Origin: Phaeobacter sp. A36a-5a
GTDB taxonomy: Bacteria; Pseudomonadota; Alphaproteobacteria; Rhodobacterales; Rhodobacteraceae
DNA: 64,000 bases
NCBI RefSeq assembly: GCF_037911135.1
Contig: NZ_JBBLYU010000001.1
Location: forward strand, 434,001 to 498,000
Reading direction: 5' to 3'
Positions 19,412-22,997 of the stretch are shown in pieces. A program made the position numbers and the translations under genes. Positions within the stretch are counted from its first letter, which is position 1. Each line of letters begins with the position of its first letter. The notes under the pieces were generated by a model that was not told the origin of the DNA, ran no database searches, and saw only the letters and a program-made list of their open reading frames with translations.

Positions 19412-19449
19412 GGTTTGCAAAGCCCCGCAGGGCGGTGGCTGGCCGTGGC

Positions 19450-21240
19450 TCAGTCCCAGCAGCTGACCAGAACGGTCATGCCGCTGGCCTGACGGGTCAG
19501 CGCCCCGACCGGCAAGGCGGTTGCCTCAGCGCTGGCGTCAGAGGCGGTGACCCCGGCGCTGCTCAGGGCGGCGCGCAGGGTATCGGCATTTGCCGCAAAA
19601 CTGACCCCTTCTGGCAGCTGGGTGGCGCCTTTGGTCTGGCTCAGCAACATGCCCTGCACGGCGCCATCGGTGGTCAGCACCGGGCCGCCCGCATCGCCCG
19701 GCTGGCTGCTGAGTTGCAGACGCGAGACACCGGGGTTGCCGGACAGATCCTTTACATCCTGCAAGCTGCCCCAGCTGAGGCTGGGGGCGCCGAGGACGCC
19801 CTCGTAAGAGAAGCCGGAAACCGCGATATCGGACTGAAGCCGGGCGGAGGCGCTGGCCAGTTTGGCGACGGCCATCGGGGCCAGCGCCTCAACCGGGCGC
19901 AGCACGGCGATGCCGGTGGCGGTGTCGGTATAGGCGACCTCGGCCTGGTAGTCGTGATCCAGTGTCACCCGGGTGCAGCCTGCAACCACATCGGCGGTGG
20001 TCGCCACGCTGCCCTTGGCATCGACATAGAAGCCGGAGCGCGACAGGCGCGGCTTGCGCACGTCAAGGCCCGAGATCAGATCGACATTCTGCGGGGCATC
20101 GGCACCGGCGGCGGGATCCAGAACGCCGTCGATGCGTTCGAAGCTGGCCGACATCGCTGCCAGCACGCGGGCGCGCCGCTCGTCGTCACCGGTCGGCCAG
20201 ACCAGCGTGAAGCCCTTGATTTCGCCATTGGCGAGCCGGGCCTCGGTATAGGAGACGATGCCATTGCCGCGGCCTTCCAGGGTGAAACTGTCGCCGCTGC
20301 GCTGGCGCGGACCGTCCAGAGGGACGATCTCCAGCGTTTGCATGATGTCGTAGAGACCGTAGAGCGTGCGCCGGTCACCTGGCTGGCTGATCAGCAGCAG
20401 CTGCGCGCCGAGATCGCCGCTGCTCTTGAACAGGGCAAAGGGAGATTCGTAGCGATCGAAGGTCACTTCACCTGCGGGGACCTGCATCGAAATCCCGGCT
20501 TTGGTATCGGTGAGGGGGGCCATGCCAACCGAAATCAGCGGCGCGTTATATTCATCCATCAGCGCCTGACGCTGGGCGGTGGTCAGCACACCGGTGGGCG
20601 CGTAGCCGCGGGCCGACTGCCAGTCCGACATGGAGCCACGCGTGCCGCGACCAAAGGCGCCGTCGATGGTGGAAGTATAGAAACCGGCGGCCTTGAGCGC
20701 GGTTTGCAGATCCATGCGTTCTTCGCGGGTGAGACGGGATTCGCTGCGGCGCGCCTCAGCCGGGGTCTCATCGGGGAGCACGGTTTCGACCGGTTCCGCC
20801 GGGGCCTGGGTCACCACTGCGGGGTCGATCGGCTCCAGAACCGGGCTTTCGACGGTGGCCTGCGGTTCGGTATTGGCGGTGGCGGCTGTCGGGTAGAACT
20901 GATTGCCGAGGTTGCTGCTTAACGCGATGAAGCTGTCGCGCGGGATCTGCCGTTCGGCGCGGTAGACCTGAAGCACCCGGTCGGCATCGCTGCGGGTATA
21001 GGGGCCAAGCAGAATGCCATACCAGCCACCGCCAAGCGAGAAGCCGGAGACATCGGGCAGCCGCGCGGCAAATTCCTGCGCTTCGGCCTGGGCTTCGCGC
21101 AGGGAGGCGCGGGCGGCAACCTGGATCCAGACCGTCTCCTGCGCGGATTGTTGGGTGCCGGTCTGGGCGGTGGCAACACCTGTAAAGGCGGATGCCAGCG
21201 CCATCAGGGACAGTGCCAGCGTAGCAATCAAACTCTTCAT
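19450..21240 (-). CDS. Exported SPOR/peptidoglycan-binding protein with degenerate trypsin-like domain
   Basis: This 596-aa exported protein has a signal peptide (residues 1-26, ending ATAQ), a SPOR-like repeat domain (about 35-108), a Pro/Glu-rich linker, a peptidoglycan_binding_1 domain (about 170-232, TIDGAFGRGTRGSMSDWQ), a middle domain, and a C-terminal trypsin-like fold (about 395-565). The protease triad is lost: the histidine position reads Asp417 (VATTADVVAGC), the DIAVL aspartate reads Gly443 (TGIAVL), and the serine reads Ala517 (QPGDAGGPV). It is therefore probably a periplasmic cell-wall binding scaffold rather than a protease. The start is chosen at MKSLIATLALS with AGAGG upstream. 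Confidence 0.88.
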   Translation of the reverse strand: MKSLIATLALSLMALASAFTGVATAQTGTQQSAQETVWIQVAARASLREAQAEAQEFAARLPDVSGFSLGGGWYGILLGPYTRSDADRVLQVYRAERQIPRDSFIALSSNLGNQFYPTAATANTEPQATVESPVLEPIDPAVVTQAPAEPVETVLPDETPAEARRSESRLTREERMDLQTALKAAGFYTSTIDGAFGRGTRGSMSDWQSARGYAPTGVLTTAQRQALMDEYNAPLISVGMAPLTDTKAGISMQVPAGEVTFDRYESPFALFKSSGDLGAQLLLISQPGDRRTLYGLYDIMQTLEIVPLDGPRQRSGDSFTLEGRGNGIVSYTEARLANGEIKGFTLVWPTGDDERRARVLAAMSASFERIDGVLDPAAGADAPQNVDLISGLDVRKPRLSRSGFYVDAKGSVATTADVVAGCTRVTLDHDYQAEVAYTDTATGIAVLRPVEALAPMAVAKLASASARLQSDIAVSGFSYEGVLGAPSLSWGSLQDVKDLSGNPGVSRLQLSSQPGDAGGPVLTTDGAVQGMLLSQTKGATQLPEGVSFAANADTLRAALSSAGVTASDASAEATALPVGALTRQASGMTVLVSCWD

Positions 21241-21498: not shown

Positions 21499-22428
21499 AT
21501 GACCGACACCAAAGGCGCTCCGCGCTCGTTCCAAGAGATCATTCTGCGGCTTCAGACGTATTGGGCCTCCAAAGGCTGTGCCATTATGCAGCCCTACGAC
21601 ATGGAAGTCGGCGCGGGCACCTTTCACCCGGCGACCACGCTGCGCGCGCTGGGCAGCAAGGCCTGGGCGGCCGCCTATGTGCAGCCGTCGCGCCGTCCGA
21701 CCGATGGCCGCTATGGTGAGAACCCGAACCGGTTGCAGCACTACTACCAGTATCAGGTGCTGATCAAACCCTCGCCGCCGAACCTGCAGGAGCTGTATCT
21801 GGGCAGCCTCGAGGCGATCGGCGTCGATATGGACATGCACGACATTCGTTTTGTCGAGGACGACTGGGAAAGCCCGACGCTCGGCGCTTGGGGCCTGGGC
21901 TGGGAGGTCTGGTGCGACGGCATGGAAGTCAGCCAATTCACCTATTTCCAGCAGGTCGGCGGCTACGATTGTCACCCGGTATCGGGCGAGCTGACCTATG
22001 GTCTGGAACGTCTGGCGATGTATATTCTGGGCGTCGATCACGTGATGGACATGCCGTTCAACGACCCGGACGCGCTGATCCCGCTGAGCTATGGCGATGT
22101 GTTCAAGCAGACCGAGGAAGAATACGCCCGCTGGAACTTTGACGTGGCCAATACCGAGGTGCTGCTGCGCCATTTCGAGGAGGCCGAGGCCGAATGCGCC
22201 GCGATCCTCGCGCAGGAGCATATCGACCCCAAGACCGGCAAACGCATCATCATGGCCCATCCGGCCTATGACCAGTGCATCAAGGCCAGCCATGTCTTTA
22301 ACCTGCTCGATGCGCGCGGCGTCATTTCCGTCACCGAGCGGCAGGCCTATATCGGCCGGGTGCGCGCGCTGGCCAAGCAATGCGCCGATGCCTTTGTGCA
22401 GACCGAAGCCGGCGGTCACGCAGCGTAG
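21499..22428 (+). CDS. glyQ: Glycine-tRNA ligase alpha subunit
   Basis: GlyQ is the catalytic alpha subunit of the bacterial alpha2beta2 glycyl-tRNA synthetase. The 309-aa protein shows the unmistakable family sequence: [36 protein letters not shown] and [19 protein letters not shown]. The beta subunit gene glyS is 0.7 kb downstream, with one small exported protein gene and a possible mini-gene between, instead of being directly adjacent. Confidence 0.97.
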
Positions 22429-22463
22429 TAACCCGAGGCTGATTGCCAATAGGAGTCCACGGT

Positions 22464-22997
22464 ATGGGCAAGTTCCTTTCGCTGATCCTGATTTGCTCCG
22501 GCCTCGCGGCTGGGGCGGCGATGTATTACCTGCAGGTCTACGGCTTTTACGAGGATGTCGAGCTGCAGCCGGGCAAGGACGTGATGCTGACGCCGCTTGG
22601 TGGTGGCGCGGCGCTGCCGATCCGCTACAGTGGCTTTGAGGCGATCGACGCGGAGAGTTCTCCCATTCGCTATCGCGCCTGTTTCGCTACCGATCTGAAG
22701 CCCGAAGAGCTGGCGCAACTGTTTGTGCTGTCGGATCAGAAAGAGCCGCGCAATGCGCCGGGCTGGTTTGACTGTTTTGATGCCGAAGCTATTGGTCAGG
22801 CGCTGGCCGAGGGACGCGCCGAGAGCTTTTTGTCGGTCAAGAATATCTCTTACGGGGTGGACCGCATCGTAGCGATCACCGACGCAGGGCGCGGCTATGT
22901 CTGGCATGAGCTGAACGATTGCGGCCAGAAAGCCTATGACGGCACGGTTGTGGGCGAGGAATGCCCGCCCCGGCCAGAGGCGGTCGGAGGCGAATGA
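22464..22997 (+). CDS. Small exported or membrane-anchored protein between glyQ and glyS
   Basis: I do not recognise a characterised family; similar proteins seem to sit at this position in other Rhodobacteraceae. The 177-aa product starts with a hydrophobic signal or anchor (MGKFLSLILICSGLAAGAAM) followed by a soluble domain with four cysteines (YRACFATDL, WFDCFDAE, LNDCGQK, EECPPRP). AGGAG precedes the ATG, which I prefer to an in-frame ATG 21 bases earlier. The stop overlaps a following ATG by one base (TGATG). A link to translation is not implied by sequence. Confidence 0.85.
   Translation: MGKFLSLILICSGLAAGAAMYYLQVYGFYEDVELQPGKDVMLTPLGGGAALPIRYSGFEAIDAESSPIRYRACFATDLKPEELAQLFVLSDQKEPRNAPGWFDCFDAEAIGQALAEGRAESFLSVKNISYGVDRIVAITDAGRGYVWHELNDCGQKAYDGTVVGEECPPRPEAVGGE

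Follow-up and report, generated by a model that had tools for sequence, protein, structure and literature searches.

A predicted wall-tethered trypsin-fold pseudoprotease encoded beside glyQ in the Rhodobacteraceae

What does a bacterium do with a protease domain that appears to have lost every residue needed for cutting? The question is raised by a gene on the minus strand at 19450..21240 of the window (the whole 64,000-nucleotide stretch of Phaeobacter sp. A36a-5a DNA analysed here), which runs for 596 codons from an ATG, plus a stop (coding part without the stop, window:19453-21240(-)), and whose product carries, in order, a SPOR domain, a PG_binding_1 domain, a PsbP/Mog1-like domain, an inactive Trypsin_2 domain and a tail ending in CW. 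Profile-based annotation would label this protein a trypsin-like peptidase. The first-pass annotation had instead described it as a SPOR, peptidoglycan-binding and trypsin-like fusion with a ruined active site, and the fusion is borne out by Pfam, in which SPOR (residues 34-99, E 6e-7), PG_binding_1 (residues 172-227, E 4e-11) and Trypsin_2 (residues 402-531, E 2e-12) all score above their curated cut-offs. An antisense ORF of 495 amino acids (window 19435-20922 (+)) overlaps the gene, and is most likely a mechanical by-product of high G+C coding DNA.

The N-terminal part of the protein points to the cell wall. SPOR domains prefer denuded glycan and are often septal, and PG_binding_1 is a wall-binding module. 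By sequence inspection, residues 1-25 (21166..21240, minus strand) form a putative export signal that ends in VATA before a Q and has no lipobox; the AlphaFold2 (AF2) model places a helix at residues 2-20, and A25, the last residue of the putative signal, is kept in at least 95% of 90 homologues. At the sequence level, export of the protein is well supported by its signal-peptide-like N-terminus. The SPOR domain (20944..21141, minus strand) contains Q40, which is present in at least 95% of the 90 homologues, is invariant in alignments A1 and A3, and by motif is the equivalent of the glycan-contacting Q270 of RlpA (PMC6895207), in line with a conserved Gln being among the contacts by which SPOR domains bind denuded glycan (PMC6895207). 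The Pfam match and this Gln together place the domain among SPOR domains; most of its other residues vary across homologues, and the Pfam SPOR model matches just 23 of 60 members at E up to 0.01. The PG_binding_1 domain (20560..20727, minus strand) was found in all 60.

Between the wall-binding modules and the trypsin part lies a conserved region of about 148 amino acids (residues ~236-383; 20092..20535, minus strand) in which a Pfam search found no domain. It is modelled by AF2 with a pLDDT of 94, and Foldseek against the PDB relates it to 2xb3, 2vu4 and 1jhs (TM ~0.55-0.6, E 1e-5 to 1e-3), hence our description of it as PsbP/Mog1-like. The trypsin/HtrA-fold domain follows (residues 396-565; 19546..20055, minus strand), delimited by Pfam, phmmer, AF2 and PDB matches, and then a C-terminal helix/strand tail seen in the alignments and the AF2 model (residues 578-596; 19453..19509, minus strand), which ends C594-W595-D596; the tail is conserved, and family proteins end in CW plus about one residue. 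No PDZ domain was matched anywhere in the protein and the CW tail forms its end, so that its layout is not that of the HtrA proteins DegP and DegS. The whole-protein AF2 model has a mean pLDDT of 88.8, mostly above 90 in the trypsin part, and a pTM of just 0.48, and therefore does not give the relative arrangement of the domains. The best PDB matches of the modelled trypsin part are MarP (Rv3671c), DegS and other HtrA proteins (E ~1e-9). Profile and predicted structure thus agree on a trypsin-like (S1/HtrA-type) fold.

The predicted fold is kept, whereas the catalytic residues are gone. The former His position is D417 (19990..19992, minus strand), the former Asp position is G443 (19912..19914, minus strand), and the former Ser position is A517, preceded by a near-invariant new acid, D516 (D516-A517, 19690..19695, minus strand). 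Aligning the domain with human HTRA2 (phmmer, solved structures) pairs TNAHVV with TTADVV, ADIATLR with TGIAVLR and GNAGGP with GDAGGP, the solved HTRA2 used here itself having Ala at the Ser position. The replacements extend to 172 non-redundant homologues, pooled from 90 aligned sequences, 80 named genome loci and divergent members, among which the catalytic His occurs in none, the Asp in two and the Ser in four. Position 417 is acidic in 138 (E 87, D 51), otherwise Q (12) or A (11), also tolerates S, K and R, and is never His, including in the 90 aligned homologues; position 443 is Gly in 159, and position 517 is Ala in 134, Val in 20 and Ser in four. EGA (71) and DGA (36) are the most frequent combinations at the three positions. 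A conserved His was also sought across the whole trypsin domain of the 90 homologues, and none was found. By contrast, relatives outside the pseudoprotease clade, mostly from other alphaproteobacterial families, have H-D-S intact in 28 of 28, which rejects an error in the register of the triad. Recent decay or a sequencing artefact is rejected as well, given the low dN/dS and a pattern seen throughout the family. The original reading of the three substitutions is thus confirmed by position, by the HTRA2 alignment and by the 28 triad-bearing relatives. With D417, G443 and A517 in place of the His-Asp-Ser of active S1/HtrA proteases, the C-terminal domain, judged from its sequence, cannot cut.

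Loss of catalysis has not been followed by loss of constraint. In two close pairs (with a same-genus copy and with a Phaeobacter copy), the dN/dS of the trypsin domain is ~0.09 and ~0.17, values that are rough, being simple Nei-Gojobori estimates at high dS, and pN is well below pS. These estimates indicate that the dead domain is under purifying selection, and catalytic residues lost with fold and selection retained are what define a pseudoprotease. The fold glycines, T414, D439, P543, F548 and both Cys are kept in dead and live groups alike, while other positions switched between live and dead, namely Asn to Asp516, Gln to Arg507 and Gly to Arg401. Asp516 is present in 169 of the 172 dead homologues, compared with Asn in 26 of 28 live relatives. 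A near-invariant new acid beside the lost nucleophile argues for a surface that was reshaped and then maintained, rather than one in random decay. R401, which replaces a Gly of the live relatives, prompted us to consider a zymogen-like salt bridge R401-D516, but divergent members do not retain R401, and the idea was rejected. The two cysteines are C422 (19975..19977, minus strand), conserved in 172 of 172 homologues and in active relatives, and C594, present in 171 (with W595 in 167); the pair also occurs in live relatives, and we infer a C422-C594 disulfide. In five highly divergent, long-branched sequences (L203, L207, L214, L219 and L223), further changes affect the GD.GGP motif or the old Asp strand, suggesting that some lineages went through a second round of erosion.

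The origin of the domain can be traced to live proteases. Outside the Rhodobacteraceae, trypsin domain plus tail matches alphaproteobacterial proteases in which H-D-S, GNSGGP and the Cys pair are all present, and whose fusion partners are Sel1, MORN or PG-binding domains. The family itself yielded six live copies. One of these, from genome G162 (L232:4569-6809), has the SPOR, PG-binding, middle and trypsin layout with an intact triad, was not found beside glyQ, and is possibly a living precursor. In a tree of 63 domains from which the triad columns had been removed, a single branch separates dead from live (bootstrap 100, SH-aLRT 98) and is present in all 200 bootstrap trees counted, in a tree that is unrooted, whose bootstrap is not fully settled and in which several end branches are long; a quicker tree of 71 rows gives the same split. 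Since one branch divides dead from live even without the triad columns, a single loss of the triad is probable, and would date to the ancestor of most present-day Rhodobacteraceae or to an earlier time. On the simplest reading of the same sequences, the Cys pair predates this loss.

In our survey of 395 Rhodobacteraceae genomes, nearly every one representing a different genus, some match was found in 381 and a strong one in 338 (E below 1e-36, counted by eye), and the full-length protein is confined to this family among 385 genomes sampled across the class. About 57 of the 395 lack a strong full-length match, and a live tail-bearing replacement is also missing from most of those that were checked; the protein is therefore not indispensable. 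Strong full-tail live copies occur in about five of 30 genomes lacking the dead gene and about one of 30 bearing it, suggestive only, and mutual exclusion or replacement of the two forms was not convincing; most genomes without the dead gene have neither. One record titled 'Nocardioides marinus', an actinobacterial name, holds a 65%-identical copy of the Rhodobacteraceae gene (L097), and is probably mislabelled or contaminated.

In the window, the divergently transcribed neighbor of the pseudoprotease gene is glyQ, encoding the glycyl-tRNA synthetase alpha subunit (21499..22428, plus strand), and the two genes are arranged divergently at 136 of the 138 loci examined, with a DUF6446 gene and glyS as the usual order after glyQ. 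The DUF6446 gene (window 22443-22997 (+), between glyQ and glyS) is itself beside glyQ in 122 of the 138 Rhodobacteraceae loci. Cell-cycle control by CtrA was considered as support for a septal role and set aside, no TTAA-N7-TTAA site being found in 135 intergenic regions towards glyQ. In G023 (L234:5246-6886) and G290 (L236:5565-6728), glyQ-linked copies with the SPOR, PG-binding and middle parts end before the trypsin domain, and G023 has a separate live trypsin copy elsewhere in its genome (L233).

Taken together, we consider it fairly probable that this is a peptidoglycan-tethered, exported pseudoprotease, whose dead domain serves in binding or regulation. A disarmed domain preserved for so long probably works by holding rather than by cutting. 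In the mechanism that we propose, a live protease of the alphaproteobacterial subfamily marked by the GC...CW cysteine pair would have lost its triad, and the gene would then have been passed down beside glyQ. SPOR and PG_binding_1 would anchor the protein on the sacculus, perhaps at the septum, and the dead domain would serve as a fixed binding module, in which C422-C594 pins the tail beside the dead cleft and holds the shape of the cleft. The domain may dock a periplasmic partner, e.g., a peptidoglycan hydrolase, a synthase or a live protease, which would be analogous to the dead LytM domains of DipM, EnvC and NlpD. The first-pass annotation had proposed an exported pseudoprotease with an intact fold selected for a non-catalytic role, which stands at the sequence level given the probable single loss, the conservation, the low dN/dS, the core fold and the signal-peptide-like N-terminus. 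SPOR and PG_binding_1, with the invariant SPOR Gln, make plausible the annotation's further idea that the protein is kept for binding, as a scaffold at the septum or in the cell wall; in a few genomes, the SPOR/PG-binding part occurs without the trypsin domain. A more specific version, in which a regulator acting at the septum or cell wall, vertically inherited throughout the Rhodobacteraceae, uses the trypsin fold, its cleft locked by the C-terminal disulfide, in the role that dead LytM domains fill elsewhere (docking, activating or restraining peptidoglycan enzymes), is put forward very tentatively.

Other explanations have to be weighed against a binding or regulatory module. The dead domain could be a structural relic that merely stabilises the protein, while SPOR, PG_binding_1 and the PsbP/Mog1-like domain do the work, as the glyQ-linked proteins of G023 and G290 and the extra erosion around the old active site in divergent members would suggest. 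However, these are just two clear trypsin-less cases, every other copy examined has both domain and tail, and a relic would be expected to lose the oxyanion-loop motif, whereas GD.GGP is near-invariant, the tail Cys is invariant and dN/dS is 0.09-0.17 in the two close pairs; we regard a relic as unlikely. That the protein is still a protease, through a non-canonical triad or an altered register, is extremely improbable. The Trypsin_2 and HtrA models do match, and the oxyanion-loop glycines of GD.GGP are kept, but all three positions are replaced across the 172 sequences, the domain offers no conserved His, and the triad columns of the live relatives make a register error unlikely.

Two further readings accept a dead domain but give it a different partner. 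The remodelled cleft, acidic at D/E417 and D516, might bind a small ligand or a metal ion rather than a protein, consistent with the frequency of acids at both positions (138 and 169 of 172) and with the precedent of MamO, a trypsin pseudoprotease that binds metal (PMC4794232). Yet the di-histidine site of MamO is absent from a domain without conserved His, and position 417 also accepts Q, A, S, K and R, which leaves this reading improbable. Alternatively, the protein might regulate a live periplasmic protease, e.g., a DegP-type HtrA, through mixed oligomers or competition for substrate, instead of wall enzymes. The same genome carries further Trypsin_2 proteins, at least one of them a canonical HtrA, and MamO, which promotes MamE-dependent proteolysis, again provides a precedent (PMC4794232). 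Nevertheless, the protein has no PDZ domain, its sequence and tail are unlike those of DegP-type proteins, and its wall-binding domains point to a wall-located partner; we hold such a role to be very improbable.

With a probable one-time ancient loss, retention across most Rhodobacteraceae genera and a live homologue of the same architecture in one genome, the family offers a clean natural case for asking how a binding protein arises from a protease. It is also a candidate for a new cell-wall factor in a group of environmental importance. No description of the family was found in open papers, most subscription papers lying outside the search. An abundant SPOR protein reported in the D. shibae vesicle proteome, Dshi_0924 (PMC7901474), is at most a candidate for the same protein. 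Trypsin-fold pseudoproteases are already known; the novelty lies in a version that binds the wall, runs through a whole family and has a traceable live precursor.

Among known systems, the closest are the alphaproteobacterial Trypsin_2 proteases with a GC...CW tail (L177-L200), which share the Cys that follows the His helix, have a C-ending tail (usually CW), and align over the whole domain and tail. They differ in keeping the triad and GNSGGP, in N-termini made of Sel1, MORN and/or PG-binding domains, and in being scattered over many families. The G162 protein has the same domain order, shares the Cys pair and, by profile match, includes the PsbP/Mog1-like part; it differs in its intact H-D-S and its location away from glyQ. 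MarP (Rv3671c) is both the top PDB fold match and the best NCBIfam hit; however, it is an active protease of which only the protease part matches, and the score against the MarP family model NF033740 is 46.6 bits, far below the cut-off of 250. The MamO/MamE family of magnetotactic bacteria likewise repurposed a bacterial HtrA/trypsin-fold domain after loss of catalysis (PMC4794232). MamO, which acts in magnetosome formation, has Thr for Ser, keeps His and Asp, and binds metal through two His (PMC4794232), whereas our pseudoprotease has all three residues replaced, lacks a conserved surface His pair of this type and carries wall-binding domains. Only in how it might work is there an analogy with the dead LytM regulators DipM, EnvC and NlpD (PMC10336132), in which a dead peptidase-type domain also sits on a wall-associated envelope protein, albeit with an unrelated fold. 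In DipM, from another alphaproteobacterium, amidase and lytic-transglycosylase partners have been demonstrated, so that a dead peptidase-type domain can steer wall enzymes (PMC10336132).
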